Shown here: positions 9,601 through 42,900 of the stretch, piece by piece
Numbering within the stretch: position 1 is the stretch's first letter
Layout of the letters: the number at the start of each line of letters is the position of its first letter
Source: Gonium pectorale
Lineage: Eukaryota; Chlorophyta; Chlorophyceae; Chlamydomonadales; Volvocaceae
DNA length: 64,000 nt
Assembly (NCBI GenBank): GCA_001584585.1
Contig: LSYV01000037.1
Coordinates: 547,738 to 611,737, forward strand
Reading direction: 5' to 3'
The notes under the pieces: generated by a model
What the model was told of the DNA's origin: nothing
What the model saw: the letters and a program-made list of their open reading frames with translations, nothing else
Database searches by the model: none
Program-made: the position numbers and the translations under genes

Positions 9601-12368
9601 CGCCCCTTAGCCCTGCCCTGTCTAGCATGGCCCCGCGGATCCGCGTCCTTGCCCCATCCGCCGCCCCGTCGCACCTGCATGTACTTCGCGGAAGCCTCGC
9701 TGGCCTCAATGCTGTACTTCTCGCGCTCCTTCTCCAGCTGGTAGATCAGCTTGGACTGCTTCTGCGCCTCCGTCTTGTAGCCCTGGATCTCCTGCTCCAG
9801 ATTCCGCTTGGTGTTCTCGTTGATTTTAATCAGATCCATTTGCTTCTGGGTGGAGTTCTCGGCCTAAAGGGGAAGGGTGGGTAGGGAGGGGGGAGGGCGG
9901 ACAAGGGTTTAGGTTAGGAGGGTGACCCCGGGGCGGGCTGGGGTGAGTGCGGAGGGAGGTGGAAGCCCGCTAGCCACCAATGAATCGCGCGCAGTTTACA
10001 CTGTTGCGCCTGAACCGTGCTGCTCGGCGGCTGCCCCAACGCTCCAAGCGCCGGGTCCATCATGGTAAACATCCCAGCCCTAGCATCCCGGAAACCCCCC
10101 CAACCCTCAGCAGGGGGCCCACGGCACGCGCAACCTGAGCTGAGACCAGCCCAAACCAAGCGCGCGCAGCAGTGGAACTGCCTCACACACCGCATGCAGC
10201 AGCGCTGTGAGCTCCCTCCCCGATAAACCCTCCCCGATAGAACCGCGTGTCCGATTGCCAGCTTGGATTGGGATTCTGTGCCGTGATGCCGCGATCATCA
10301 CAGCCTCAACCAATGGCGGGTAGGTGCACCGCGCGTAGGTTCGCACGGCTCCACCTAGGCTTTCCGTCGTGGGTCCCCTTGCTGGACGAATTTGATGCAC
10401 TTTGCATAATTGCTTGCCCCCGCAGCGCTCCGCAACTCTCAGGCGTCGCATATTGCGCGCCAACCCTGGCGACCGCCCCGCCCCGCCCCAAAAGGCGCCG
10501 CCTCCAGGCTATGCCCATTTGTGCCCCGCTCCCGAGCCCGTCCCCGAAACCAGCTGCTCCCAACCCCAGCCCCGCCCCAAAAGGCGCCGCCTCCAGGCTA
10601 TGCCCATTTGCGCCCCGCTCCCGAGCCCGTCCCCGAAACCAGCTGCGCCCAACCCCAGCCCAAGCCACTAAGGTGCGGCCGCCCCCACGGCCTCAATAGC
10701 TCAGCCTCCACCCTCCTGCAGCCTGTGAACCTCAGTCCCCTCCATTGATCGTTGTCGGCGTGCAGCCCTCGCGTGGATACGCACCACCTTCCGTCTCCAC
10801 CCCTAGCCGCCACTTCCGACATACCAACTGCCCTTTGGCCCCGACACCACCCTTGCCGCCAACCCTCTGCTGACAGCGAGCCCCCACCTGTGAGCGCAGC
10901 TTTGTGAGCACGTCCCGCTCGCGCATCAGCTCCTCCAGCTTCTTGCGCTCCGTGTCCACCTCCTTCTGCTTCGCCTCCAGATCCCGCTCCAGTGCGGACA
11001 GCTCGCCCCGGAGCGTGTCCCGCTCCCGCTCCACCTCGGCGCGCTGCTCCTCCAGCTGCTTGGTCTTCTTCATGGTCTGCTCGCGGAGCTTGTTGACCCG
11101 GGAGGCCTCCTGCTTGATGGCGGCGATCTCCTCCTCCTTGACCTTGAGCTCCACCTGCTTGGCCGAGTTCTCCGCCAGCAGCTGCGTGTTGGTGTGGATC
11201 TGCTCCTCAAGGTCATGGTGCAGCTTCTGCATCTTTTCATTGAGCATGTTGTACTCCTTCTGCACCTTCTCCGTGGCCAGCTTGGACTCCCGGAGCATCT
11301 GCTCCAGCTTGCCAACCTGCTCCTCGGTGGTGGTGACCTGCATCTGCTTCTGCTTGATCTCCGAGCTGCGGACCTCAAGCTGCTGCCGCAGCTCCTTCAT
11401 CTCCTTCTCCATGCGCTCCTTCTTGCGGATCTCCCGCTCCGCCTCCGCCTTCTTCTCCGCCACCGCGTCCTTGAGCTGCTGGATGTCCATCTCTGCCTGC
11501 AGCTTATCCGTCTCCGCTGCGCGCAGCTTCTCCTGGGTCTCCATCAGGTCCCCACGCAGGGCCATGATCTGGTCCACCTGCGCGTCGCGCTCGCGAACGA
11601 GCTCCTCCTTCTGCTTGAGAAGCTCGTTGAGCGTGGTCTCCTCGCCAATGGCCAGCCCAGCGCCCTGCTCCACCAGCCGCGTGAGGTTGGCTATCTCTAT
11701 CTTAAGCTGCTGGATGGTCTCCTTAGCCTTGGCCTCCTTCTCGTGGCTGGCGTCCACCATCTTCCAGGCCTTCTCAATCTCCTTTTTGAGCGCCGTGATG
11801 GTCTGCTGGTCCTCCTCATTGAGCTTGAGGGCGGTCTGGACCTTTGCGGCATTGGCCACAATCTCCGCGTTTAGCTCGCGGCATTTCTTGATTAACCGCT
11901 TTTCGCTCTCTACAGGATGCAGAAAAGAGGGAAGGGATTGGAAGGGAGGTCACGATGGCTGGGATGGCCACCAGGGTAATGCCCGCCCCGGCCAAACCCG
12001 CACGGGCCCCACACGACCCATGCACGCACCGTGCGATTTCTTTAGAGCCCGATGCAGCTTTTCATACTCTATCCGGAACCGCTCCAAGCTCTTGTCGCCC
12101 ACGAGCTCTTGAAGCACCTGCGGGCGCGGGCCAGCGGATGCAATCTCGTTAAATGCGCGCCGCGGCCACCGACGCAACAAAACAGATGGCCCGAAACGTG
12201 CACAAGGTATAAACATGAAAACATTTTGTGGGCCATGGCGTGGGCTGCCTCCGCTGAAAAGTCCGCGGGAACTTAGTACAGGCCCACCTCCTGAAAGTCC
12301 CGCTCCAGCGCCTCATACGCCCGGTTCTCCAGCTCCTCACTAGGCTTTGCAGCCGCGTCGTCCGCCAT
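6672..12368 (-). CDS. CFAP58: Cilia- and flagella-associated protein 58 (CFAP58/FAP58)
   Basis: Ten exons (transcript order): 12368-12288, 12117-12030, 11909-10888, 9863-9675, 9248-8976, 8724-8524, 8339-8220, 7921-7634, 7416-7330, 6926-6672. They sum to 867 codons plus stop, against about 872 aa for the human protein. The product is coiled coil almost throughout. It matches the animal CFAP58/CCDC147 family along its whole length: GDKSLERFRIEYEKLH near the N-terminus, EIEKAWKMVD, KLKQQQNLYEAVR, LVRRNDELALLYEKIKIQQS, NPLNVHRWRKLE, ARQPGPE, and a C-terminal FTGGGF motif. The start is the ATG at 12368 (MADDAAAKPSEELENRAYEA). In the family, CFAP58 is an axonemal protein needed for motile cilia and for the sperm midpiece in animals. 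Intron 5 uses a GC donor (8975-8974): only that site keeps phase and alignment. Introns 3 and 7 carry repeats. Confidence 0.95.
7931..7946. repeat. (TG)n microsatellite in CFAP58 intron
   Basis: Eight perfect TG units just inside the intron upstream of the 7921-7634 exon (transcript sense), beside the acceptor. Confidence 0.9.
10482..10659. repeat. 89-bp tandem duplication in CFAP58 intron 3
   Basis: Two adjacent copies (10482-10570 and 10571-10659), each starting CCCGCCCCAAAAGGCG and containing the CTCCAGGCTATGCCCATTTG segment. They differ at only a few positions. The copies lie inside the 1,024-bp intron between exons 3 and 4 of CFAP58. Confidence 0.85.
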
Positions 12369-12619: not shown

Positions 12620-15600
12620 ATGGCCACCGCAACGAGACTTGCAAGCTCGGCGCACTCCAGGTGCCAACGCTTATAGATACACACATTTATCTCGCCATAA
12701 TTGATTTGCTTGGAATTCACATACTGACGCAGGACGGCGTGCCAGCCCTCCACCTCGGGGCGACACTTGCTCTACGCGCCTCCCTCATCATGCCGGCGAC
12801 TGCCAGCGCGGCGCCTAAGCCACCACATCCGGTAATTACAGTCGAGCGTCGTCGGGCAGCGAGAGGGCCGCGTCTCTCCGCAGCTGACCCACGCCAACGC
12901 CGTTTGGACCGGTCGCAGGGCCGCCGCAGGCGGCGACTACATGTCAGAGCGCCGCGCCGATGAGGAATACATGAAGGTCCGGCTGCTGCGCTTCTGGGCG
13001 GGTGTTGCAGCCCTTCTTGGACCGTCCTCCCGGGCGCCGCTGGCTACCGCCGCGGCGGTTGTCTGCTGCTCGCCGCCCGAGCCGCTCCCCCTCCATGTGC
13101 CCCCTCCTCCCACAGGAGTATCAGGGCCTGAAGGACCAGCTCATGGACAACACGCGGAAAAGCGGCGCCGTGGTGGCCGCGTACCTGCTGCTCACGGTGG
13201 ACGGGCAGGTGGGGCGGCCCCAGCGGGGCCGGGCCGGCTCGACAGTGGCAGCTGACGGGACGGCATGCAGCATCCTCAGCCCCTGGCGCCGGTGCCTTGG
13301 TAGCCGCCTGGCAAGCGCTTGCTCGCTGCATGGGTCTGCAGCGGGACTTCACGGCGGGCCCCTGCGCCGGGTGGTGGGGTGGGCTGGGGGCCTCGGCCGC
13401 CGCACGGGCCTCCGAGGCTGTGCAGCTCTGCCGCCGTCTCCACACACCCCCTCGCGACCCCGTCAGCCACGTGCGGCGCCTGGGTGCGCGGGCTCTGTCA
13501 CGCCGCTGCTCTCCTCCGGTGCTCACACTGTGCGCGCCGCCCGCCCGCCCGCCCGCCCGCCCGCGTACGGGTCCCCCGTGGAGGCCGCCGCCAGAGCCAT
13601 CCTTATACCCCACCACCCGCATGTGCCTCCGTCATTTGCTCCCCGCCCCGCCCTTGGGGCCACTTGGCCCGGAATGCGAGGGGACGCTGGGAACCGCTCG
13701 CCGCTGAGCCTTTCACAAATCGCAACGACGTGCGCCTGCATCCCTTATCCACTGACAATGCCTTCCAACCCCATGGCATCGCCGCGCCTGTCCTGGCCGC
13801 GGCCCCCTCCCAATCCAGGCTATTGAGAATGCCTTCCAAACCCACTACCCCCTAATCCAGGCTGCTCTGTGCACGCTGCTGGGCACCGCCGCCAGCTACG
13901 CCTACCTGTCCTGGCTGTACCGGGACGTCGACAGCTACACGGCCGACACGGTGGTGCCCATGATGGAGGCGGAAAAGGTGGAGCCTGGGTGGTGTGTGGG
14001 GCGGCGGGAGGAGACGTGCGGGAGGGTGGGCTCGAGGCCGGGGGGGGGACGGGCAGCGCAGGCGGGACCGACGCGAGGCGGGGCATCGATCGATCCTCGC
14101 GCTGCAGTCAGGAGCACTGTCGGCGTGCGTTGCGTGGGGGCTGGAGGGGTGGAGAGGAGGGATGGAGGTGGAGCCACCCGGCAGCTGTCCGGCTGTGCCC
14201 GTGTTCAAATGGAACGACGCATACGACGAGCGTAAGCGCGAAAATGGTGGTGTAATCGTAGGACCCAGCTCCAGAGGGATTCGAAGGGGTGATGTCCCTG
14301 CATATTAGTTCGGTGGCGACCACCACCGTAGCCCCCGATGCGGACTAGAATTCTCTCTGGGATGACCCTATGCAATGCCGTGCTGGGATGCACCTAGTCT
14401 GGCCTACGTGCATCGCATGCGGGCTGGTGCATGTCTCCCGGCCACCGGCCCACCCAGCCCCCCAGCTGTGCCCGTGTGTGCGACACAGGCGGATGCCTCG
14501 GGACGCGTCCTCGCCCTTCCCGCCCTCCCCGTCACAGCTCCTTCACCTCGCCCCACCTCACCCCTAGCCCCTGCCCCCAAATCCCCGCTCCCCTCCTAGA
14601 TCGAGAACACGCTGCTCCGCCGCCTGGCCAAGCTGGGCTGCGCCTACCGCCAGGCGCTGCAGCCGCGGCTGCTGGTGCCGGTGGCGCTGGCGGCCGGCTG
14701 CGCGGCCTACAACCGGCTGGTGGGGCCGGAGGCGTCGCTTGACACGCTGCACCAGGGCTGCCTGCTGGGCGGCTTCCTGGCCTACAAGCTGGCGCTGGTG
14801 GTCAAGGTGGCGGATGACCTGACACCCAAGGTGGGGATGTGGGATGGAGGGGTGGGGGCGCAATGCTGGCCGGGGGGTTAGTAAAGGAGAAAGGGGTCCC
14901 CGTCGCGATGCGGGGTGCCGAACCGCAATTCGAGGTTGAGATGCTGGCGCTCGGCGCATGCCAGCCAGCCAGCTATCTCCCAGACTGCATGCTGTGTTGG
15001 CGCACGCCAGGCCGCTGGACGTAGCCGGCAGCCGTGAGGTCAGCTAAGTTGGTGAGGGGACGCGCGAGGCGCAGGGGCCAAAGCCGCCGCGCCGTGGGCC
15101 TTTAATCGATCGCTGTTTTGGCGAGGCGTTGAGCCCCGGCCCTTCCGGCCTGCGGCGCTGCGAGGTCACCAAGGGGCTCCCCATGGCCACCGGACCCGGG
15201 GGGGGGGGGAGGGGAAGGGCGGGGATCTCGCCCCGAACGGCGGTAATACGGTATGGCAGGGCGGGAAAGCGGTACCGGCGCGGGGGGGTGGACATGCTGC
15301 GGAGCGTCTCGGCTGCGAATCCGAATGCACCCAAGGGAGAGATGGGCCGTGGCCTTCGGTGCGCCCGCGTGGCGGCCCGCATGCAGGGGTCGAAACGGCG
15401 CCCTCGCTCGCCGCGTAGATGCCGCGCGGCATGTCCTCTGGCGCTCTGGGCTCATCTCGCACATATTTACCCACGTAAGCGGCCTTCCACCAAGCCATTT
15501 CGGGTCTGTCTTATCAGATGCCTCCGGCCCCTCCTAACGTGCTGTCCCGCTACCAACAAGACCCAACCAACCCGCTCCCACAACCCAACACCCGTACTCA

Positions 15601-15896: not shown

Positions 15897-18141
15897 ACGG
15901 AGCCGGCGGGGAGGGATGAGAAAGGCAAGGGGGGCCGGCTGCCGGGCATTGCGGTATGGTTATTAAGGGAGGCAGGGAGGGAGAGGGGATTCGCGGTAGC
16001 GCTCGGTACCGAACGAAGGCTTTGAAGGCCCTGAAGAATTGGGAGCTGCGAACGGGAGGGTCCTTGTTGTCGGGAGCAAATCTGTCGCGGGTGGGCAGGG
16101 TTCCCTGCTTTGGGCCGGAAGGCCGGTGCTGCACTTCACGGGCAGCATGCACGTGCACGGGCACGCGCGGAAGGTGTCTGTCGTTGGCTGGTGGCGGCAG
16201 GTGAGGGCGGCAGAGGGGGGTGCGTGAGCAAGTCCAAGTCGGTGGGCGCCATCGCAGGTTGTTGTTATTGTGGCTTTCCACTGGAGTTTTCTGTGATGTC
16301 GCCCGCTGGTGAGCAGTCGTGGCTTTTCAGGCGATTGACTTATGCAGTTTGTTACACCGTAGCCGTGCGGGCGTGGAGCCGCCGCTGTTGATAACCCGGG
16401 TCGGTGCGGAGCAGGTGGCGGTCGGTGCGCGCGGCGGCCGCGTTTGTCGACGATGGTGCGCCTCTGGGGCCAGGCATGAGGCATGACGCACGAGGGGTGC
16501 TCGAACGCAGCAGCGAGCTGCGCGAGCTGGGCCCTTTGGCTGCCTGCTGCGCTTCGTACGTCGAGGACGCAACCTTGCCCATGTGCCAGGCACATGCGGT
16601 ACACAGACCAGGCGATGGCGCAAGCCCGGCCATGTAGCGGAAACTGTAGCGGCGAACGAAACCAGGGTGCATTGAGCATCTCGCCTTCATGCCCCGGCAG
16701 GGACTGGGGACCAGGCCCCTCAGAACGTCGCCAGTAACCCGCCCCGGTGACCATAAGGAGCTTCTGAGCCCATGGCCGCCGTGACCCTCCCCAAGCTGGC
16801 TCACGTATTTGTGACGAACGACGCGTTCGCCGATGTCCGAGCACCGGCCTAAGGAGGGAGGGATGCAGAGGCTGCGAGCTCGCACACGCCACATGGTCAA
16901 CAACGGAATGGCACATTCGGCGTAAGATCTTGGGCACATGGGTTGGCGGGGTGCACGCACGTGGGTCTGTCGGCCTGCCAGGGGCGTCACGCTGATCTGC
17001 AACGGACCTGCAGGCCGCCCGCCTGGCAGCCCCGCAGCGGTCAGCAGGACTTCCATGGCGACCATCACCGACCACGACATCGCCCTTCCTGGCACGGGTG
17101 CGGGTGCAACGGACCTGACCACCTGCAACGGTCAAGGTGTGGCTATTGCAAGAGAGACGGTACGGCAAGAGACGCGGTACTCTGCGGTTACAGAGGGCTC
17201 GAGTGTATACAAGGCAAGCGTGGAACATATGTTAAAAAGGAAAACATGTGTGTTGGCGTGCGCATGATGGATGCGCACGGCGCTGTACTGCGTAAAGGAC
17301 GTGTTCGGGATCGATGGTCGCTTGCATATTAGGAATCAAACGCAGATGAAACACAAAGGCATGGCGTGCGCAGATCACAAGCTCCGCAACCATGATCACG
17401 TACCGGCAACATGCCGCACCCAGTTGGCTGCTGGCATTAGACAAGACGCGCGAAGCAAACGATCCATTTATGGGATTGTAGGACGAGATGCGCAGCACAG
17501 TTTCTCCATTTATGGGATATAAAGACGAAAAGCGCAGCAGCAGCACAGTCTATTGACATTGGACGAACATATGTACGACGAGCCCACGTTGGGTAGACGA
17601 TCCTACACATTCAGAGCAGGGCCAGAATTCCCGCCGTAGCGGCTACAACCCGGTAATTAACACCGCTCGCCAAGGGCGGCGCATCAGTAAGCATATATCG
17701 CAATGCGATCACCGCAAACTCGGCTCCGTGTACGGCAACTTGTTCATCGTGCAGCATGGCGACATGGCTGCATTCGTACCGTCGCATTGCAACCGTACGG
17801 CGCCACAGGTGGGAAGTCGCATGGGTAACCCCACAAGAAGTGGAGGTCGTGGCAAGCTCCCTTCGGCGTGCCGGTATGCACGTAAAGGCACCAGAGACCC
17901 ATGCTACTCCGCATCCCACACCTGGAGTGCGAAGAAAGACGAAAGAACCGATCACAGCCCATTTGACACCTCAAAACGAAAGCCTCCACCAGCAGCGCTG
18001 TGCGGCGATCCAGGGCGCACAGGCTGCACAGCTCCCGTGGGTACACCGGGCGAGGAGCCTTCGGGGGAGCCGGCGCACAACGCCGCCCGCTGCCTCTTCC
18101 TCGTCCTCCCCCACCCAGAGTGACCCGTGGGTCGCTGCCAC
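15897..18141. other. Intergenic, convergent 3' ends
   Basis: About 2.2 kb between two convergent genes. I see no convincing coding frame. A TGTAA for the minus-strand gene sits at 17188-17192. Confidence 0.55.
17188..17192 (-). terminator. TGTAA polyadenylation signal candidate
   Basis: On the minus strand, about 950 nt past the stop of the glutaredoxin/anion-channel gene. It is the first such pentamer I found downstream of that stop. Confidence 0.3.
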
Positions 18142-21100
18142 TCAGTAGTAGCGCTCCCACACCGCACTGACGCCGCGCGGGACGATCTCGGGCAGCTCGG
18201 CCGTGATGCGGCGCCAGTTGACCGCGTCCACACCCTACAATTGGGTAAGCAGGGCGGACAGGCGGCAAGACAGGGAGACGCAGCGTGTTGGTTACGTGCA
18301 TTCCGGCCCGTGCGAGTTGACTGAATGGGGCCGGCAGCAGCAGCGGCGCCCGGAAGCAGCTAGCAACAAGCCCGTCCAGGAAAGGTGTCGTAAGCAACGT
18401 CGCGCGCTGACTCGCCGCACAGCACCCACGGCACGCGGAGGCAGCAGGGACCTCAGGGCAGACCGGAGCCCGCGCACAGCCCCCCCACGCGCACCTTGGC
18501 GAGGATGAGCCCGAAATGGTGGCAGCGCTCGGGCATGGCCCACAGCAGCGTCTTGATGAAGCGCACGCGCTGGTGCAGCATGGGCATCGACTCCACCAGC
18601 AGCGGCAGCAGCACGTGCCACGTGTCGGCGGGCGTGGCGACCCAGCACTGCGCAGGGCAAGGGCGGGTGCAGGGAGCTGTGGAGCGGCGATGCGGGTGCA
18701 ACGCAAGAGGACAAGACGACGTCACTTCAGGGAACTCCCCATCCCAAGGCGGACGGGCTCGCTCAAAAGCTCTGTCGGGGCTCTGTCACATGCAGTCGGC
18801 GGGACCGGTTCAGAAAACACACGCCTGCCCAGGTCATGCCAAAGCCGGGCGCAGGGGCGGAAGGTCTTGGGCCAAGCCCTCCCGCAAGCCCCTGGACACG
18901 CTGGCACGTTGCCGCCCGCCCCGCACCCACATCGCGGATGATCTGCTTGGCCAGCGCCAGGGGGATGTACTTGCGCGGCATGTTCTGCAGGTGGTCCTCC
19001 TCCCAGCGCAGGTGTGCCGCGATGGCGGTGCCGTACGCCTCGATGGCCGCGGTGATCTCGGACGCCGCGGGGCCGCTGACGGCGGAGCCAGCGGCAGCGA
19101 GCATGCGGTCGACGCTGCGGGTGGGGTATAGGGTGGTGTGTGTTGAGGGGTATGAGGGTGGGGGTGCGGTCCAGCAGACAAGGATGTCGAGACCCCGGAG
19201 CACCGCCGTGCGCATCCACACACGCACTCCCCTCGTACCCCTCGCTCGTCCCCGGTGCCTACCTGCCCTGTCCGCACGCCCGCCCGCGCGCCTGCCCAAT
19301 GCACTTTGGCCCCCACTGCCTCCGGCCTCCCACCACCTACTTCTCGACGGTGCGCTCCAGGTCCTGGTGCTGCACATCCGCCTCATGGGTGAGCGCGGGG
19401 AAGAACTCGTTGTAGGTCTTGAAGATGACGTCGTCCTCGTGGCGGCCGTGCTCCAGGTGGGCCATCGACACGGCGGCCCAGGTGGCGCTGCGGGGAGGTA
19501 ACCGGACAGGCCGGGCTCACTCGCGTGTACGCCGTTTCATACATATATGGACGCAGCGCCATGGAGCCATGGCGGCAGTGGTGAAGTGGAGCCAACGTCG
19601 CGGGAGTTCCTGCACCACGTGGAGTGAACCTGGGCCCTCTGGCCCCGGGTCGGCTTACCATGAGCTGCCGGCGGCTCAGGGTGGCATGCCTGCTCGCGCC
19701 TCTTTCGCAGTGGTACACTGCACACATCGAGCACGCGTTTCGCCTTCCCAACACGCCGTTGGCATTCCCAGCAGCAGCCCCGCCGCGCGCCGTTCGCGGC
19801 CTGCCGCACCCACCGCAGCGACGCCAGCGATGCCTCGTTGTGTCCGCAGTCCTTGGCCTCGGCCAGCAGCTTGGGCAGCACGCCGCGGAGGGCCTCGTGG
19901 GTGAGGCGCATGAACGACATGGGTCCCCACTTGTAGTCGGGAGTGAACACCTGCGGATGCGCGCGGGGCGGCGCCGAGGGGAGAAGGGACAGGCGCTCGA
20001 AGTCCGCGCCCGTACCTTCAAGTCCAAACGACTAGTGGCATCGTGACGTTTTTTTCGGAGATACCGTTACAGGGCCGGGCACCAACGGCGGCGCCTGCTT
20101 GTACGCAAATGAAGAGTGTCTCACGAAGGAGGGAGTACGTGGGTGGCTTGCAGCTACGGGGCGGCGGCCACGCGTGCGCACGGGCTGCGCACCTGGCGGC
20201 GGACCAGCGCGGCGAGGGTCTGCATCAGTAGGTTGGCGTGCAGCCAGCTGGTGATGAAGAGTGTGGCGTAGGCAATGGCCTCCTGCGGGGTCAAGGCCGT
20301 AGTGGGGAACACCAAGGCCGGAGAGGGGGTAGGGGTAAGGAAGACACAGGGCTGTCCGCCAGAGTTGCCTGGGCCATGCCCGCCACCCGTTCCTCGCCAG
20401 ATGCTCCACTGGTCAGTCGCCAGTAGGCTACTCAGTGCCCCTGCGAGCGGAAGGCAGTGGCGCACTGCCGCTGCAGTCACCGCTTGGCTCAATGCCCGCT
20501 CCTAATCCTCCACCGTCGTACCCTCTCGGCACGCATATCCTGTTGCGCGCCCCTTACCCAGACTTCGTCTGTTCGACACGCAACCCGGCGCCACCGCGCG
20601 TGCTGGGAGGCCACTCTCTCATCCGACCGCCCGTAGTCACACGCCGTCAGGCGATACCCCTGGCCGCTGGCCACATCCTTGGACCCCCACGCACGTACCG
20701 ACAGGTCGCCCGGCTTGAGGAGGTTGTAATAGATGGCGCACATGGACATGGCAGCCGAGGGGAAGCCGGCAGCCCAGTACGACATATCGAAGCGCAGGCG
20801 ACCAAAGTACGGCCTGAGCAGCAGCAAGCATACACAGGGGCGGGCGGGCCTGTCAGTAGCACGGCGGATACGCTGACGTGAGCAGGCTGGCTGCGGGGTC
20901 CCGAGAGCGGCGACGGCTCGCGACAGACACCCACGCCACCCGACCCAACCCTACCCTGTCGTGGCTAGATGTAGTGCGCGTTCCGTTCCCTTTCGGCGCC
21001 CTTTGTGGCTTGCACCTCCAGGGCCTCTCACCGGAAGAAGCAGAAGAGCAGCACGACCGCAAGCGCAATGGCCATCCAGTGCATGTTGATGAAGATGAAG

Positions 21101-24100
21101 TCGTTGAAGCCGTTGCCCAGGGCGCCCTGGCCCATGGCCAGCACCTCCACCACCGGGCCGTAGCACGACAGGTAGGCGATGGCGCCGATGGCGGGGGCGG
21201 CCACCCACACAGCCAGCATGGGCCGCACTCGGTCGTCTGGCGGTGACGGGGTTGTGTGCGAGGGGAGGGGAGGGGTGGCCCAGGGGCGGGGTCTTGTCAG
21301 TCCGGGAGCAGACCTGGGTGGTCTTGAGGGGTGGGAGTGGCGCACAAGGGAGTGCAGTTGGATAGGCCAGCAGGTCGGTTGGCGGGTGTCGGCTGGCCGG
21401 AGGTCGCCCCTGCCCATGCACGCCGCTTGCCAGCGCGTTGTTAAAGCTCGAGTGGAACAGCCGCCACCCGCCCTTGCCTGCGCCCTCCACGGCTCCAACC
21501 ACCCCCACCCCGGCCTCCTTGCCTCACCGTAGTCGGGCATTACGAAGGCCTTGTACAGAGTGATGGCGAACAGGGCGACCCACATCAGGAAGGCGAACGC
21601 AAACCTGTCGCAACAAAGGACAGCGAGCGGCGTGTTGAGAGCGGGTCCGGGACGCAGTCGCAGTGCGCTAAGTGGCCTCATCCCCCAGCACCACCGCCAC
21701 CCAGAGCGGACGACCAAATGGCCCCAAGCCCCCGGTTTGCCACATGCCTAGTCCCGAAGCACCATTATCCCAGTCCCGAAGCACCCTTGGCTCCGCCCCC
21801 CCCCCCGCCGCCGTCTCACCATAGCTGCATGGCGTCCCGGTAGGCGCTGTCCAGCATGGGCCCCACAGCGGCCGCTACGAAGTTGCCAACCGGCATCATC
21901 ATCCAGCTGGCGTTCACGTGCTCCAGCTCCTTCTTGAGCGCAATCCAGCCTGCCACCTGCACGGGGGAGGCCAAGCGGGTTGCCGGCGGGTGAGACGGCC
22001 TGAGAGCCCGGGATGCAATCATGAAGACTGCGCTCCGCAATCGTAGGGTTGCGTTCGACGCGTCGTAAGCACGAGCTCGTGCATACGGGCCCATGCACGG
22101 TCCGCCGCCAGAGAGGGGGCTGAGGACTCACCCAGATGATGGAGATGAGGAGCGAGGTGGGGGCGCCGATCCAGAACAGCACCTTGGCAAACGCGGGGTC
22201 ACGCTCGCGCTCGATGAAGGCGAACAGGACCAGGGTTACCTGTCGGGCAGGGCCGGCAGGAAGGCGGTCGGTTGGTTGGCGGCATGGCAGGGGACGGGGG
22301 AAATGGAGTGGGCTGGGGCGGGGGAGGAACGCGCATCACAGCGCGTGCGCCCGCATACGGACACGGCATGCCTCGGCCCTCGCTGCGTCGAGCCGCAACG
22401 CGCAGCGCCCGAGGCGAGATGGGGGTTTGAGGTCTGAGCTCGACTTACCCAGGGCAGGGCGAAGCAGTTGCCATTGATGTTGTGCGCCAACTCCTTTGCG
22501 ACCTGCAACACACACAGGTGGGCAGGGGAGCGTCCGGAGGCGGAAGACACCGTGACCTTTCAGACCTGTCCAGGCGCCGGCGAGGCTCTTACGCATCATA
22601 CCCGGCCCGCCTGCCATCTCCCCCCACACACACACACAACATGACCACGTACACATACACCCCTGCCCCTCACCTTGCGCGGGTACATCACCATCTTGAG
22701 CAGGTACAGCACCACCCACAGGAAGTACCAGATGGCGGATGCGATGCCGACAGAGTACCACACGGCGGCCGGCACGCCCAGCCCGCTGTGTACTGGGTCG
22801 GCGGCGTTCCAGGCGCACGCCAGGCCCACAAAGCCCAGGTGCATCACAAAGTGGGTCAGCTTGACGTGCTTGATGGGGTGGAAGTCCTCGCGGGTCATGT
22901 CGTCGGTCTGGGGGTGCGGGGTTGGTTCAGGGATGGGTCGGGGAGGGAAATGGCAGGAGGGGGCAGGGAACAATGAGCAAGCAGTGGCGGGATCACAGCT
23001 GCGGGTGACATGACAAGTGGTGCAAAGCTTCACGGTACAACAGAGCGCTCTGCACTGGAGAGGCTCATAAGGGTTAAGCGGATGAGTGCGAGGCGCATGT
23101 GGTCGGCATGAGTGGGCAGGGAAGGAGCGCGGCGGGGGAGCAGGAATGGCCACATCGGTGAGGTTCAGGGTGGGCGCGGACGCCAGCCCGTCCGCCAGCC
23201 ACCAGCCCGCGCACCGATGCCGCTACAGCTTGCACGACCCGGGCGCTTCGCGGTACTGCGGGTACTGTACGGCGACAGCAAAACCTGGATCTTATCGTGC
23301 AGCACACACACAACCGTACCTTGGTCTTGTACTTGTAGTCGATGACCAGCGGGTTCGCGTCATCAAAGTGCCTGATCAGGATCTGTGGCGCGCCCTCGTT
23401 TAGGCGCTTGTTCATGTCGTCGTAAGTGTACTCGACCTGGGGATAAGGGGTGGGCCGGAAACACAGCCTTACTTACCGAAACAGGCTCAAGGGGGCATGG
23501 CAGTAGTAGCGAGCGCAGCCAGGGAGCCCGAGTAACAGACGTTTGGATCCCGAGGGTTCCAACCGTGTCAGCGCTGACGTGTGCGACTGGTGGCAGGCAG
23601 CAGACTCTCGGCAGCGCGGAGAGGGAAGTGGCGATGAACGAAGTAAGCCCCACCGTCGGAATGGGAACACGGCTGCGTACATGCGAAGGCCGCCCTCCCT
23701 GCCTCCCAACGGCGCGGGCAGGCCCGGGTGGGCCTGCCGCCCGAAGGCCCTGACGGGCACCGTTTGCCTTGCCCGCCCCCTCCGGCGACCCAGACAGACC
23801 CATCGCAAAGAGGAGACGCCGCAGCCTGGCTGTCCGCCTCACCTCGGCCTTGCTGTCAATGAAGGTCTGGTAGACCGTGTCGCTGACGAGGCCGAAGCGG
23901 ATCATGAGGCCGAACATCCAGCAGCCCAGGCAGAAGTCGACCACGGAGTCCAGCAGCGCCGCCATGCCGAACGCGCACGTGAAGGCCAGGCCGACGTTGA
24001 CCAGCTGCGGTTGGAGCGGCAGACGAGCGGGGGCCAGCACAGGGGCGGGCAGAATGCTCAGTCCAGAAGGCAGAGGCTCAGTCCAGAGGGCAGAGTGCTA

Positions 24101-26905
24101 AGTCCAGAGGGCAGAGTGCTCAGTCCAGTCCAAAAGTGTGGAGAGTATCCGAGAGTGAGAAGCCTCGTTGGGTTCAAACGAGGATGGGCGACAATGTACA
24201 GGCAGCGGAGTGGAGCAGGGGGAGGGCGGCAGAGGAAGCGATGGGAGAGAGGCACGGGAGCGGGGACCGGCCCTGCAGTGCAGGGGCGCGCAGAGATAAG
24301 GCGGGGGTGGCGATGGGGCGGGCGACAGGACTCTGGAGGCCCCGGTTGCGCCACCAAGGAGCTGGCAGCATCATGTCACAGCAAACGCCGTGTCCGCACC
24401 AAGCGTGCCCACCTTGCCCTCATGGTCCGAGACAAGGAAGAAGAAGAAGGCGAGGGCGCCGAACATGACGGCGCAGAATGAGGCGAATTGCTTGGGCGCG
24501 CCTGCGGAGTGGAGAGGTGCCGTGGCGGCCGCGCGTGTCACCGGCGCCCTCGTGTGTTTTTGCAGCTGGCAGCTGGGTCACTGGGCTACGTGGATATGTA
24601 TGTTGTGCGTTATCATGTTGCAAGCGGTATTGCTCATTGGCGATCTGCATCCATCGGCGCATACCTCATGGGCACACACTACCGTGGGCGGCACATACAC
24701 CGGGCATGACGGGCGGCGGCGGCGGTAGCCCGCACCAGCCGCACTCAAAGGAACCCGCGGCCATGGCGGCCCCCGAAGCTTCTATTTTGAAGCCCCCATC
24801 CCACGGCTGTCAGTGCTGCGGCATTGCAGCGAAGGACCCCCGAGCACGCCCGCCCGCCCGCCGCGGTGCAGGGCACGCCCAGCGATGCCGCCCTTGGGCT
24901 CCAGCGACAGCGCTACCCTAGTACCATTAATTGAAGTCGCGTTAAAGCGCGAGATCCCGTTAGCTCACCGCCAACGAACTTGGGCCTCGACCCAAACTGG
25001 TCGGCGACGGCGGTAACCAGCTGCGAGAGGCCGCCCAGCGGGCCGGCGTTGCTGCCGCCCAGCAGGCGAGCGACGCACTGCGCTCATTTGGCAAAGCAAA
25101 GCAGGCGGCGGGTGAGTGTTGCCATGTTAAAAATGAGGGGAAGGGCTCTCCAGGGAACCCGCGTCCCCGCCCCCTCATGCAGGCTAGGTGAACACCCCGC
25201 CGGAGCGCAAGGTGTCGTGCCCTCTCCACCAACAGGCCTTGCCACTGGGCTGTACACGCTCCGTGCGTTCCCCTCATCTCAACCCCAAGGACGGCGTGCT
25301 GTCACCGGAGCTTATTCACCTCCACCATCAGGCCGCCCATCACCCAGTGCGCCGCCGTCTCCTTGTAGTAGATGGCGACCAGCAGGCAGATCACAAACGT
25401 CTGGCGGCCAGAAGATGCCGCATGGCAACACGGGCGAGAGGCAACGGGCGGGCGGCCGTGAGTTGCCGACGTCTGCGCTCTCTGTTGGGGAGGCCTGCTA
25501 TGTGTGGCACGATAGCCTAGCTCAGCGCTTGCCCAGGTTTGCTTCTGCTCCGCTTGGGCTGCCGGTGCCCCTTTGGCCCACGCCGAGGCGGTCGTGAGCA
25601 CCGGTGCCAGGCGTCCAGGCGCGCACCAGGCCGCCTGGACACCTCCAGGCGCGCAACAAACCACGCATGGGCGCGTGTCCCGCGGCTGCTCCCATCCCAG
25701 GTGCGACACGCAGCCACCCGGAGCCTGGCGCTGCCTGCGCTCGCCGCAAGCGCCTGCCGCCGGGGACACACGGCACTCACCCAGAAGCCGTTCAGGCGCA
25801 CGATGCGGTTGTCCACGACCTCGGGGAAATGGAACATGGTGCCGCCGGCGGCCGAGCCGCCCTCGCGCACGCCGCTCCTGCGCACGGAAGCAAACGGCGC
25901 GGCGCAGCTCGGGCGACGGCGCTCAAAACAAGGCACCCACCCACTAGGCAGCAGAGGCCAGAGGCCGGAGAGCAGGGGCCCGGAGCTTGTTGTTCAGCGA
26001 CCCCTACCGGGCGAGCCTGGCTCCGGTGTTGGCGGGCGAAACCAGCACGGCCTTTACGCCGGCGGCGGCCAGGGCCCGCCCCAGCTCGCCGTTGGACTGC
26101 ATGCGCTTGGTCGCGTCGCAGCCGCCTACCATCACCTGCCGCGAACGACGGACGCGCGGGAAATGCGGTGAACGCACGTCTTGCAGATGGAGCTTCAGAA
26201 ACGGGCGTGACGTGAAAGGGATTTACCCTGGAGTTGGAGGCGGGGGGCATGCGCACGGCGTGAGCGATACGGCACGCACGGGAGGCAGTATATAGGAGAT
26301 GTTTTATACATCCGCTTCTTGCAGCGTATCTTTCCTCCCGCCCCCCGCCGGGCCAAGCAATTGTCGCCGTGCATCACACGCGTCGCTCCCTCAGCCTCTC
26401 CACAACTGTACACCACCCCAAAGCCACAATCCGCACGCAGGTAGTAAGTAAAGTTATGAACGCCCAACCTTGTCAACGTAGACGTACGGCACCGTCTTCT
26501 GGGGGCTGTGCAGCTTCTTGAGCGTGTCCCACACATCGCTTCCGTTTGACATCACATCCACATTGAAATCGAGTGTCTGCATGCGCATCAGGGGCGCACA
26601 GTTTACGGCTGCTGACAGCAAGGCTGGCCCGGGGGGGGGGTCAATAGGTTGGTTACTCACCGGAACTCCGAGCTGGCTGAACAGGCGACGAACCTCGACG
26701 CAAAAAGGGCAGTGCTGCTTGCCAAAAATGACCACCCTGCGCAAAGAAAGCCTGGTAAACGGAGAGCACGGCCGACATGACAGCAGCGCATCCATGTTCA
26801 AACTCACGGTGCTGACTCGACGGCGCTGGCAATCTTGCTGCTCAGGTCGTCACCCTTGTACTTATCCAAGTCATTGCCGCCGCCGCTTTCGACGTCCGAC
26901 GACAT
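18142..26905 (-). CDS. Glutaredoxin - DUF4395 - SLAC1/TehA anion channel - hemerythrin fusion protein
   Basis: Twenty-three exons: 26905-26808, 26736-26661, 26576-26469, 26135-26008, 25877-25781, 25400-25320, 25077-24969, 24501-24413, 24004-23843, 23436-23320, 22907-22674, 22502-22449, 22239-22132, 21956-21820, 21604-21528, 21236-21032, 20813-20699, 20282-20193, 19950-19814, 19487-19341, 19114-18931, 18647-18495, 18234-18142; 932 aa, every junction in phase. Residues 34-125: glutaredoxin with CPFC (42-45), TVPYVYVD (86-93) and GGCD (98-101). Residues 155-305: DUF4395 membrane domain (VVDNRIVRLNGFW, APKQF, FCLGC with Cys 287/290). Residues about 368-690: TDT/SLAC1 channel of roughly ten helices, with ASWMMMPVGNFVAA and SYWAAGFPSAAM. 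Residues about 705-850: hemerythrin-like helices with candidate ligands His713, His754, His757/Glu758, His775, His824/Glu828. Families: the Grx domain reduces or glutathionylates thiols, TDT proteins pass anions (malate, nitrate, chloride, sulfite), HHE domains bind iron/O2. A redox- or gas-responsive anion channel is inference. The start could lie further upstream if a 5' exon is missed. Confidence 0.88.
24051..24131. repeat. About 20-bp imperfect tandem repeat in an intron
   Basis: Four units built on CAGAGTGCTCAGTCCAGAGG within the intron between the exons 24501-24413 and 24004-23843 of the fusion gene. Units differ by one or two bases or by a single-base indel. Confidence 0.8.
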
Positions 26906-34500: not shown

Positions 34501-37500
34501 GCAGCAGCTAGCTCAGCACGTCCTTGCGCCCTTGCTGCAGCGCAAGCTCGTGTCGGGTAGCCTGGCAGAGGAGTGGGCGCTGCTACTGGGCAAGTGCTCC
34601 TCAGGCCGCGCGCCCGCAGGCGCGGTTGCAGCGGGCGGAGCCGCTGAACAGCGGACAAGCACCTCGGCCATTGGAAGCCTCCCGGGCGGCGCAGGCTCCA
34701 TTGGGCCCGGCGCCAAGGATGGGGGCTCGAACGGCCTCCAGCAGGGCGGCAGCGGCGGTGTGGACGGGCATGGAGGCAGCAGCCCGGGCAACAGCGAGTA
34801 CGGGCCGGGCCAGAACAGCACTACCACGCCCAGCGTGGCGGGGACGACGCAGACCGGGCAGCGCCAACGGTCCCTGCCACCGGGCCTGCTCACTCAGGGC
34901 TCGGAAGCGTCGCCGTCGCCGAGCCGGGCGGGAACGACGCAGACGCCCTCGGGAGTGGGCGGCAGCCGGGTGCTGGCGGGCATGGCTGGGACGCAAGACT
35001 CGCAGGCAACGGTGCTGAGTACCGCGCTGGGTGGCGCCTTCGCTGGCGACACTCGCACGCACATGGGCATGCTGGTGTCCTCGTTCAAGGAGACCATCAA
35101 CGGCCTGCAGGCCGTCAGGTAAGGCTGCGGGCGTCGGCTGCGCTAACGCTGAGCTACACGGATAGGAGGCACAGCCTCACCGCTTACGGCGCTCGGAAGT
35201 CCTGGGTCAAAGGATCCCAGGTTGGCGCACTGCTGTACTGCTCATGCGCTTGCAAGGCCCCCCCGGTAACATCAGGCAGGGGTGAGCCTCGGTACTCCTG
35301 CTGAGCTCCACCGCAGTTTACTTGCACCTCGCATTGCTTGCTTGTAGCGCATCCGCGAGGCCTATGAACCACGGTCGTCCCCGCGCACTTGATATACGCA
35401 GGGCCGAGGAGGCCGAGGAGCTGTCGGTGCTTAAGCTGGGCAAGGTGCTTGGCCGCGGCGGCAGTGGGCTGGTGTTCCAGGGATACCTCCACCTGGGGCT
35501 GGAGGTTGCGGTAAAGCTCTTCGAGAACCCAGATGACACGGACCCCGATGCCATGTCGGGGGACGGCAGCCACACGCACGCGCGCGCCCTGGACGGCTCT
35601 AGCAACGGCAACGACCTCACGGGCGGGGGCGAGACGCACTCAACTGGCAAGGCCTCGGCCAGCAAGGGCGGCGGCGATGCGTCCACCAGCGGCGCCGCAG
35701 CGGGCGCCGGCGGTTCCACTGCGGGGGCCGGCACATCCAAGACCGCGGGCTCAACCAAGGAGAAGGACTCGAGGGACAAGTCCAACCAGGCCCGGGCCGC
35801 GGCCCAGATGACAAAGCGGCAGAGGGACCTCCTGCGCAACGCGCTGGAGCTGGGCGTCACGTCGTCGCTGTCGCACCCCAACATCGTGCAGGGCTACTGC
35901 CACTGGGTGAACGTGGTGCTCATGCAGGACGCATCGCTCAACCGCTGCTGGCTGATGGGGCAAGCCGAGTACATGGCGCTCGCGCCGCCGGGCTCACCGC
36001 CGCCGCCGCTCTGCTCGGCGCTTGTCATGGAGTACTGCGACATGGTGCGTGTGTTGTGGGTGGAAAGGGATTGCCGGGTCGGACAGGGACGCGTGAAAGG
36101 GGGTTGTCACGTGAAAGATCCGGCACTTCGGTGCTGCACCTGTCGCTTGCAAGCGAAGAGATGTGCCGCCACCGGAAGCAGGCATGGAGTTTAGCGCCAA
36201 TGCTGCTTGGCCTGGTGCAGAAACATGTGTCCTGACGCGTCGTCTGCGCGCACGTTGTCCGCAGGCTAGGGCGGGGACGTGCTGATAGCGCTGTGGGCGG
36301 GCGGCCTTTGACCGGGCGGTCTAGCTGTTCGATGTGATGTGAATGCATGCGTGCCGTGACCTGTACTTGCAGGGCTCCCTCATCCACGCCATCAAGCGCG
36401 GCACCTTCACGGCCCCCGACAGCAAGCCGAACATGGAGGTACGGAATAAGTAGCGCTGCAGGGACCACACCAGCGAGTGCTGCCTACCGTACGTCCCGGC
36501 CCCGGCTTGCACTGTCTTCTCGCGGCTCCGCACCGACTCGTGGTTGCCGGCGGTTCCCACGTACCCTTCCCCGTCAGCTTCCTAGCTCAGCTGGCACCTA
36601 AGGCCTTTCCTTGTGTAGAATTGCAGTATTATCACAGGCAATGCCGTGCCATGTTTGCCGCTGCAGTTTATCTACATGTGCCTGCTGGAGATTGCCCTTG
36701 CGCTTCGCCACCTGCACACCGCGCGGTTGGCGCACTGCGACCTGAAGCCGGGCAACGTGCTGCTGCGCTCCAGCCCGCGCGACCCACGCAGCTTCGTGTG
36801 CAAGCTGGGTGACTTCGGGTGAGAACTTTGCGGCCGGAACTTTGCGGCCCGACATGCAAGTCGCTTATCTTGTCGTTGTCTACGCATGGTTTCACCTGTG
36901 CGCAAGAGGCTTTGCCTCCTCACCTCCCAGCGCCCGAGCTGCGGTTTGACCGCGCATGCCTGTGTGTCTCCCGTGGGCCCCTCCTAACCTTGTTAATGCT
37001 CACAGCGTGGGCCTTGCACCGCCCCCTTCCCTTGACGCCTGCCTCCGCAGGTACGCCGCGATCCTAAAGGACGGGCTGCTGCCCGGGCGGCCCGCGGTGC
37101 TGCCCGACGAGGCGTGCGGCACGCTGCAGTACATGGCTCCGGAGCTGTTCGTGGCAGGCAGGCCCGTGGACGCCAGCATCGACATATACGCATTCGGTGG
37201 GTGGAGCTGGCTGTGCCTTGCGGGTCGCCCTCCTGCTCTTTTGCAGCTTCGAAGCAAGGAGGCCGTCACGACCCGAAGCGCCACAGTCCTCGTCGTGCAG
37301 GAGCGCAGCCGTGGCGGAGACCGCCTTGAATACACAAGCGCGAACCACTGGTTTCATGGCTACAGAGGATGCCTATGGGCCGTGCCGTTGTGTTTTCCTC
37401 AAGCAGTGCTTTCAATCATCGCAATGCCCTGTTTCCCTGCAGGCATGCTGATGTGGGAGCTGATCACGGGCAAGACCCCGTACAGCGAGAACGACTACGG

Positions 37501-39987: not shown

Positions 39988-42900
39988 ATGCCCGGCCTGG
40001 GTTATCCTATCTTCTTCACGCAGATACGTCATTTATCGCGAAGGCTAGTGGCGAGAAATTTTTGCGCTTCTGGAGCTTGTGGTGGCAGTTGTGCAGCGCG
40101 CTCAGCCGTCTGCAGCCAAGCGCACCGCAGCTGGGGTGCCTCTAGAGATAAAGCTCATTACTTGGCGCACGTTTCTGATGGGTCGAAAGGGCGGCGCGTT
40201 GGTCCGCTCAGGGCTGTGGCGCAACGCCCTTCCTCGCTGGACAGCAAGCAATTGGTTGGGACTACGTCTGCCCACTTTGAACATGAGCTCGACGTCGCAT
40301 CTGCACTGTCGTCCGATGAGCCCGCGGTGCTATCCAACGCGACGCAAGGGGAGGTGCCCCTGTCGGCGTCGACGATGCTGCGGGAAAACGTGACCGGCCC
40401 GCGACGTACCGCCAGAACCAAAGTTGTGCCCGCATTGACGCCCAAATCGCGGCTCGAGAGCGGCTCAGAGGCGTCCGCTTCGCAAGGAAACAGGAGGGAT
40501 GGCTCGGTCTGGACAGGCCCACTTAGGCGCAGGCACGGCAAAGGCAGGAGCCGACAGCGCAAACCGGGGCGCTCCTCTCCTAACGCCGCCACCGCTGCGG
40601 TGCATGAACGAAGTGCTGCCGCGCCAGCAGCATCAAAGGGCGCGCCCTCGCCTTCAATCCCCGTCTCAGCAAGCGCAGGCCAGCAGCTGCCGCCGCCGCC
40701 GCCGCCGCCGCCGTCGCCGCAGGAGCAGCAACAGGAGCCGCAGCGGCAGGAGCAGGAGCAGGGTGCACCGCTCCCTGTTGCCTCCCAGCCCACCTTCGCT
40801 CCACACCCACAATGTGCGGTAGCAGCCACGGAGGCGGTCGCTGCCACGTCGGATTCAGCGGCCGCCGCGCCTTCAGAGGGGCCCGCCCCGGCGGCTGCCA
40901 AGGCACCCCGGGCGCACGGCTCCAAACCTCAGCGCAAGCGGGTTGCCAAGTTGCGGCCGGCGCTGGGCGGGCCCATCCCGCCGCAGCTGCTCACCGCCAT
41001 CCTGCGCGATGCCAAGACGGTGCCGCAGCTCACGCGCCACGTGTACCGCTACGGCCCGCAGTTCAACCACCGGCACGTCGGCTGCTGCCTGAACCGCCTG
41101 GCCAAGGCCATGGACGCGACGGAGCCGGGCAGGGGCGGCGGGCTGACCGAGGGCGCGCAGGAGCTGCTGCTCAGCCTGGACCGCATGCTGGCGGAGCGGG
41201 CGGCCGCCTGCACGGCGCGGGAGCTGTGCAACGCGCTGTGGGTGTGGGCCAAGCTGGGGCACGTGCCGGAGCCGGCCACGTGGGCGGCGGTGCGGCGCGC
41301 GCTGTTCGGCGAGGAGGCGCGGAGCGAGGGGGCGGAGGCGGAGGGGCGGGAGGGCGCGGCGGACGCGGACGCAGGGGCGGAGACGGGGCCTGCGCGGTCG
41401 CAGCCGATTGGACCCGCATGCTGCGATTTTGCCGGCGGCTCTCCGGGCTTCCAGGCCGACGGAGTGGACGGTAGAGCCGGGCTGCGGAGCGGGGACGACA
41501 GGCCGCCGGCGCCGGTGGGCTTGCCGTCGGCCGTGCCGTCCCTGTCGGGCGCCACGCCGCAGGGGCTGTCCAACGCCGCGTGGGCGCTGGCTCGCCTGGG
41601 CTGCACCGACCGCTTCGCATGGCTGCGCATCGCCGAGCACTCGCTCAGGATGCTGCCGTCGTACAGCCCGTACGACATCAGCAACACCGCGTACGCGTTC
41701 GCGGCGGCGCGCCAGCAGAAGGCGCACCCGACGCACGTCGCGCTGATGGAGGCGCTCGCGGCGGCGGCGGTGGCGCAGATAGGCAGCTTCTGCCCGCAGG
41801 ACCTGTCCAACATGCTGTGGGCCTACGCGCGCGGCGGCATGCCGCAGCCGGCGCTCTTCGCTGCCGCGTCGCCGGCGGTGCGACGCACGCTGCCCGGGTT
41901 CTCCCATGCCGGCATGGTGCAGGTGCTGTGGGCGTACGCCACGCTGCGCGTCCGTGACGCCGCGCTGCTGGGCGACCTGGCGCGCGCCATGCTGCCGCAG
42001 CTGCCCCGGCTCGACGCGCGCAACCTGGCGTTGCTGACTTGGGCGCTGGCCCGCCTGGTGGTCAGCGGCTCCGTCGCCGCCAGCGCCGCCGCGGCTGCGG
42101 CCACGGCCGGCGCCGATGACGGCGGCGCCGCCGGCACAGGCGGAAGGCTGTCGGACATGCCGCTCGGCAACTATCCCTTCTCGCTGGCGCTGGCGGCCCG
42201 GGTTCGGGCGGGCTTCAAAGACCCGCTTGCAAAGTACTACGAGCAGGGGGGCAGCGCGACCGCGGCCGCCGCCGCAGCGGCGGCGGCGACGGCGACGGTG
42301 GAGGCGTTCGGCACCAGCAGCCCTTCACCGCCGCCGTCGGGTGACGAGGAAGCGCGCCTTGGGGAGGCGACCGAGGGCGATCGTACGGCCGCCTTCGCAT
42401 GGTCGGCTCGGGCGGCGGTGCTGCCGGAGGTGGAGCTGGACCTCCCATCCGACTCGGAATTCGAAGCGGGCGCAGCGGCGCTGCTGGTGGAGGCGCACGC
42501 CGACGCGGCAGCGGAGGCGGCCGTGGCGCCGTCGGGTGCCGTTGGCGCCGCCGACGCCTATGACGCGTCGACGTACCCGACGGGCATGGCGGCGGCCGCC
42601 GCCAGCATGGCGCAGCCGCAGGTGAATGCCGCCGCCGCCGCGTCGGCGGCGGCGGAGGCTGTGTTGGCGCACGCGCCGCCGCAGCTCCTCTCCTCCATCA
42701 CCAGCTCCGCGCTGTCCCGCCTCGACTCCCTGGACACCCGCCACCTCACCGTCCTCATCTGGAGCATGACCTCCCTGGGCAACGCCGACCCCGCGCTCTT
42801 CGCCACCGCCGCTGCCGTGCTGACGCGCCGCCTGCGCAGCCCGCGCGGCGTGTCCCCGCCCTGTCTCTCCCACATCGCCTGGTCATATGCCGTTGTGGGC

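Follow-up and report, generated by a model that had tools for sequence, protein, structure and literature searches.

A Gonium pectorale gene encoding glutaredoxin, DUF4395, SLAC1-type channel and hemerythrin-like domains in one protein

The locus and the distribution of the fusion

The window is the whole stretch of DNA analysed here, 64,000 nt of Gonium pectorale contig LSYV01000037.1. On its minus strand, from 26905 to 18142, lies a gene of 23 exons in which all introns are GT-AG and the coding region (2799 nt including the stop codon) specifies a protein of 932 aa. The exon limits were set by hand, ahead of any database comparison, and a protein database search returned a 100% letter match, P0001 (GPECTOR_36g72, Gonium pectorale), annotated as 'hypothetical' and nothing more. 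In-frame stops are present inside 17 of the 22 introns; among the remaining five, three are frame-shifting, and the other two, introns 2 (84 nt) and 15 (291 nt), would allow read-through. Upstream, an in-frame stop is found 10 codons 5' of the ATG. Approximately 950 nt 3' of the stop codon is TGTAA, a poly-A signal in algae; this candidate (17188..17192, minus strand) corresponds to the sole TTACA on the plus strand between 16500 and 18200. An automatic gene model (35 exons, several of 1-18 nt) was dropped: it skipped the exon with the glutaredoxin active site and missed exons of weak codon bias.

When the whole protein was scanned against Pfam, four domains were above cut-off, i.e. glutaredoxin (PF00462), DUF4395 (PF14340), SLAC1/TDT (PF03595) and hemerythrin (PF01814), without failure for DUF4395 or hemerythrin. 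The single in-phase 23-exon, four-domain model proposed by the initial annotation is borne out by these matches, by the GT-AG exon set and by the identity with P0001. Transcripts ending or starting between the domains were not seen, and three relatives with transcript-type names (P0007, P0014 and P0020, from MMETSP) carry all four. The Gonium four-domain fusion gene is real.

Searches gave a set of 24 proteins; one of them, P0024, is a plain TDT and was set aside, which left 23 relatives. Precomputed Pfam matches to all four domains exist for 14, and 13 of these were used to build our own domain profiles. The profiles added P0017 (from Porphyridium, with a glutaredoxin E-value of 1.4e-19), P0022 (an Edaphochlamys paralogue) and P0015 (partial glutaredoxin), so that by Pfam or profile 17 of the 23 relatives have the four domains in one protein. 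Two others, P0013 and P0016, display DUF4395, channel and hemerythrin without glutaredoxin; in P0018, P0019, P0021 and P0023 the start falls within DUF4395 or within the channel, which suggests fragments. The 11 relatives with a named source are all from algae, 10 green and one red. The green sources are Gonium, Tetrabaena, Chlamydomonas incerta (P0004, representative of 4 member sequences), C. schloesseri, Chlamydomonas sp. UWO 241 (twice), Edaphochlamys (twice) and Pyramimonas (twice); the red one is Porphyridium, where the fusion was recognised by profile. The same domain order, which the initial annotation proposed to look for in other algae, is therefore present in other volvocines, in Pyramimonas and, by profile, in Porphyridium, and because it recurs there a mis-joining of neighbouring genes was rejected. 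That adjacent genes were merged into one model by mis-annotation has next to no probability, given the 17 relatives with all four domains, transcript-type names included, and given exon junctions that are every one in frame at GT-AG sites.

Conserved residues of the four domains

The glutaredoxin domain (aa 25-122; 26052..26833, minus strand, as are all features of the gene) scored 38.0 bits in the whole-protein Pfam scan, for a cut-off of 22.9. Its CPFC active site (aa 42-45; 26700..26711) is unevenly conserved. The catalytic cysteine, C42, is kept in all 16 rows that cover this part of the alignment; the second cysteine, C45, is present in 10 of the 16, Gonium included, and replaced by Ser in three and by Thr in three. 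P88 and G99 are found in 18/18 rows and C100 in 17/18. A dithiol active site is thus not a feature of the whole family, and the loss of the second cysteine argues in favour of a monothiol, glutathione-type mechanism. Family membership is unaffected since monothiol glutaredoxins exist: of the CPFC glutaredoxin initially annotated, the domain and its catalytic cysteine stand and the conserved dithiol does not. The fold (as seen in the predicted model) and the GSH-site motifs are common to the glutaredoxins of wheat, poplar and Chlorella and to human Grx2. These are mostly free soluble proteins, whereas the algal domain is the N-terminal module of a membrane protein.

The DUF4395 membrane domain follows (aa 152-305; 23876..25834), with 80.8 bits for a cut-off of 24.5 and four helices predicted by the models. 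Its CLGC motif (aa 287-290; 23921..23932) is located where the last helix begins and agrees with the FCLGC ending initially described; C287 is conserved in 20/20 rows and C290 in 19/20, both cysteines being present together in 19 of 20. Modelled alone, the domain reached a pLDDT of 93.8, and comparison of this model with the PDB gave no confident fold match, a known fold being still possible. Shorter relatives of the glutaredoxin-DUF4395 half were looked for among 7999 scored candidates and none was found at E 1e-3, a negative of little weight because the length rule excluded the full-length parents and the majority of lone bacterial DUF4395 proteins. In the literature searched, as far as its available text goes, DUF4395 appears only as an entry in lists. 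A conserved linker (aa 306-368; 22869..23875), which contains VIDYKYKTKTDD..EDF in the alignment, joins the domain to the channel.

The SLAC1/TDT anion-channel domain (aa 369-700; 19936..22868) is flanked near each end by a phase-0 intron (one after aa 355, the other after aa 695) and scored 116 bits for a cut-off of 27.9. The predicted model of the whole protein (mean pLDDT 77.9, pTM 0.71) shows a ten-helix, SLAC1/TehA-like fold with a strong match to the SLAC1 fold. F644 (20762..20764) aligns with the gate residue F450 of Arabidopsis SLAC1; this position is Phe in 20 of 22 rows and Leu in two. Score, fold match and gate residue all agree with the TDT channel first annotated.

The hemerythrin-like domain (aa 701-835; 18979..19935) passed the Pfam cut-off narrowly, at 27.5 bits against 25.3, and scored 30.5 bits when the C-terminal part was scanned alone. 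The alignment of relatives points to six candidate iron ligands: H713 (19897..19899), H754 and E758 in an HxxxE motif (19436..19450), H781 (19367..19369), and H824 and E828 in a second HxxxE (19000..19014). Gonium and 20 of 22 relatives have six out of six, as befits the His/Glu-rich domain initially proposed; the two exceptions, P0015 and P0022, have lost all six. On the tree this loss needs two changes and is apparently separate in the two proteins, which are also the longest end branches, where placement is unsure. Selection on metal binding would be expected to give such an all-or-none loss. Edaphochlamys possesses two copies, P0006 and P0022, and the latter, devoid of the six ligands, of one DUF4395 cysteine and of the second glutaredoxin cysteine, is a natural variant. 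The H-HxxxE-H-HxxxE pattern is common to the hemerythrin-like domains of BRUTUS/HRZ and FBXL5; those sit in E3 ubiquitin ligases, whereas the algal one sits in a channel protein. The protein ends with a helical module (aa 836-932; 18145..18978) which is strongly conserved (PER and ELPEIIPRG in the alignment consensus) and for which the Pfam scan gave no match.

Kin of the channel and bacterial DUF4395 loci

Two trees were built with 14 algal channel domains, Arabidopsis SLAC1 and SLAH3, and 27 bacterial TDTs, the bacterial rows differing between them. For the first, 27 of 30 bacterial channel loci gave rows. For the second, the seven rows of a far group (L112-L118) were removed and 16 further loci were considered, of which eight had a profile match, seven of them of sufficient length. 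In both, the algal rows form one group next to plant SLAC1/SLAH3 (support 99/96 and 99/97), in trees that have long branches, two plant rows and bacterial rows chosen by an algal-plant profile, without Mae1, Ssu1 or other algal TDTs. Topology tests, with a group of eight bacterial rows (from L120-L129) picked after the first tree was seen, disfavoured the placing of the plant rows with that group (p-AU 0.019) and, more strongly, that of the algae (p-AU 5e-5). Pairwise scores read differently: for AtSLAH3 the match to bacterial L120 is worth 123 bits, that to the best-scoring algal row 80. In these trees, which include neither Ssu1 nor Mae1 themselves, the algal channel is far from the bacterial group that we take, by its motifs, to represent the Mae1/Ssu1 class.

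The bacterial TehA/TDT transporters are stand-alone proteins, and those sampled fall outside the algal-plant group in the trees. To our knowledge, neither glutaredoxin nor DUF4395 nor hemerythrin accompanies the plant S-type channels SLAC1, SLAH1 and SLAH3. Among these, SLAC1 is activated through phosphorylation of its intracellular domains, according to the available text of PMC10645844.

DUF4395 occurs in 63 of the 198 Actinomycetota genomes searched and in 15 of 95 genomes of a second phylum; Corynebacterium glutamicum, used as a control genome, gave a match too. Its neighbourhood was examined at the 30 best-scoring Actinomycetota loci (from the 63 genomes), approximately 3.3 kb each. A thioredoxin profile, built from neighbours at seven of these 30, matches 19 of them, the seven profile-supplying loci included, and none of 30 control loci chosen for the membrane family PF04020. 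In the second phylum it matches two of 16 DUF4395 loci (L071, and L068 weakly), and in a third sample none of 21; the samples overlap by two genes (L031 repeats L010 and L037 repeats L029). The thioredoxin-DUF4395 association is thus bound to lineage. Pfam thioredoxin-family matches were obtained at L038, L042, L045, L057 and L058, and, some of them below cut-off, at L048, L051, L052, L059, L061, L066 and L071. At L051 and L071, DUF4395 and a thioredoxin-like domain (below the Pfam cut-off) share a single bacterial ORF, in the reverse of the algal order.

The bacterial proteins have, as in the alga, a four-helix membrane domain with CxGC, a motif invariant in the 24 bacterial DUF4395 proteins chosen for alignment. 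Part of the Actinomycetota have DUF4395 with a thioredoxin-fold partner adjoining or fused, whereas the algal DUF4395 is fused to a glutaredoxin; the algal pair therefore parallels what is seen in part of the bacteria. Profiles of the channel, of hemerythrin and of glutaredoxin gave no match near DUF4395 in 67 bacterial loci. Inspection by eye revealed no precedent for channel plus DUF4395 among the rows listed, the nearest pair on one contig being ~35 kb apart, and no operon with channel plus hemerythrin among the matches listed.

Possible functions of the fusion

No description of this domain order was found in the literature searched, mainly listings and the opening parts of abstracts, in line with the initial remark that it is not a described protein; nor did that literature yield anything on glutaredoxin, hemerythrin and SLAC1 together. 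The parts are known and the combination is already in databases: it is a protein of SLAC1/TDT kind with a new combination of domains.

The reading we prefer, with a probability of roughly 0.4, is that of an anion channel which would be gated from the cytosol by the glutathione redox state and by a diiron sensor of O2 or peroxide. In SLAC-like channels both termini lie in the cytosol (PMC3509319, available text). With the four predicted helices of DUF4395, the glutaredoxin, the CxGC pair and the diiron domain are then all expected on the cytosolic side, a topology for which positive charges are weakly informative. Domains on the cytosolic side, together with the activation of SLAC1 through its own intracellular domains, are the reason for favouring gating by redox state and diiron. 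In BRUTUS, diiron centres with the H-HxxxE-H-HxxxE motif are oxidised by O2 and H2O2, and the reduction of BTSL2 by 3 mM glutathione proceeded 'at a very slow rate' (PMC12022348, accessible part); so slow a reduction leaves a role for a glutaredoxin.

In the mechanism proposed, O2 or peroxide would oxidise the C-terminal diiron centre; glutathione, its action sped up by the attached glutaredoxin, would reset this centre and the CxxC pair of DUF4395; the change of state would be passed on to the adjoining channel helices and to the F644 gate, and the latter would open or close a path for anions of the Cl-/nitrate type. Metal binding, the ion, the direction of gating, the membrane and the physiological role are what we infer for the algal fusion. 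The redox- and O2-linked channel initially suggested fits the residues that are conserved, namely the Phe of the gate, the catalytic cysteine of the glutaredoxin, the DUF4395 CxxC and the six ligands of the diiron site; the glutaredoxin dithiol, however, is not conserved across the family, and the sulfite part is weak. Also in favour of this reading are the retention of the fusion across green algae and, by profile, in a red alga, the all-or-none pattern of the hemerythrin ligands, the thioredoxin-like neighbours and fusions of DUF4395 in part of the bacteria, and the channel fold. Several results count against it, namely the lack of bacterial precedent, among the matches listed, for the channel with hemerythrin or with DUF4395, the lineage-bound thioredoxin link, the lack of a confident fold match for DUF4395, and the pairwise closeness of AtSLAH3 to some bacterial TDTs.

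Another reading starts from sulfur: the glutaredoxin and DUF4395 would transfer sulfane sulfur, or reduce a sulfur species, and the product (sulfite, thiosulfate) would leave or enter through the channel. Export of sulfite was the leading idea until the channel trees demoted it. What speaks for a sulfur function lies largely around bacterial DUF4395. At four of the 30 Actinomycetota loci a rhodanese is encoded 3' of DUF4395, in the order LmeA, thioredoxin, DUF4395, rhodanese (three of these loci supplied the rhodanese profile). One of them, L042, was scanned gene by gene and has DUF1416 after the rhodanese block, where the other three have related ORFs. A ThiS-ThiF-rhodanese ORF overlaps DUF4395 at L007, and a gene of the TauE sulfite-exporter family is located 44 nt upstream of it at L012, a layout shared by L013. 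Ssu1, the sulfite pump of yeast, has the SLAC1 Pfam motif (PMC6765260, available text). Against this, the algal channel groups in the trees with plant SLAC/SLAH and not with the TMGTG-type bacterial TDTs, no rhodanese domain was found by Pfam in the algal protein, and only two of 20 Pfam-scanned bacterial DUF4395 neighbours are of a sulfur kind, the other 18 being without sulfur theme (6 of them without Pfam match). The sulfite-exporter link initially drawn from the TDT family is thus weak for the channel, and sulfur stays possible by way of the rhodanese and TauE neighbours; as an account of the fusion we hold it to be unlikely.

An iron sensor is likewise unlikely. In that reading the diiron domain would detect iron, a role proposed for FBXL5/BRUTUS, possibly together with an Fe-S cluster carried by the glutaredoxin, and would govern the release of anions or organic acids under iron stress. 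Glutathione-bound Fe-S clusters are compatible with a glutaredoxin for which the first cysteine suffices, and the ligand pattern is that of the BRUTUS proteins, the iron of which becomes partly labile on reduction (PMC12022348, accessible part). The ubiquitin-ligase part of those proteins was not found by Pfam in the alga, and the reading leaves unexplained both the DUF4395 CxxC and the bacterial thioredoxin link. Still less probable is a redox or iron enzyme in which the channel domain is a mere membrane anchor or partner that conducts no ions: three of the four domains do suggest redox chemistry and the gate Phe is replaced by Leu in 2 of 22 rows, but the Phe is there in the other 20 and the match to the SLAC1 fold is strong.

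To return to the channel gated by redox state and diiron, its place in the history of plant channels is a more tentative matter. A 2012 study described algal TDTs as all Mae1-like, C. reinhardtii included, and as forming two groups; closer Chlorophyta relatives of the SLACs were, per that study, still to be found (PMC3509319, in the text available). An algal S-type channel with its own redox and diiron sensors may be the relative sought, an identification that is possible, if rather on the unlikely side. If it is true, guard-cell channels would derive from, or have a common ancestor with, a channel once under redox/O2 rather than ABA-kinase control. The question bears on how plant SLACs were controlled before kinases, since, according to a review, early-lineage SnRK2 kinases can activate the SLAC1 of Arabidopsis but fail to activate their own SLACs (PMC7367143, available text). 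The algal fusion is a concrete candidate for an ion channel wired directly to glutathione and O2/peroxide chemistry. It also offers a first testable handle on bacterial DUF4395, a domain without known function, as a membrane partner of thioredoxin-fold proteins.

Other features were noticed in the window. On the plus strand, a frame at 35403-35978 resembles by eye a protein-kinase glycine loop (LGRGGSGLVFQGY..AVKLFE) with no match in the Pfam scan, and 14600-14833 scores 25.4 bits for the C-terminal domain of CGL160, a weak match that falls short of the 34.2-bit cut-off. On the minus strand, 8976-9254 matches the central coiled coil of the cilium protein CFAP58 (117.9 bits), and further coiled-coil pieces between 6675 and 11892, the largest of which (10885-11892) has no match above cut-off, look like parts of the same gene. 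Finally, an open frame of 811 aa at 40960-43392 on the plus strand contains a FAST kinase-like subdomain 1 (45 bits), which occurs in octotricopeptide-repeat organelle RNA proteins.
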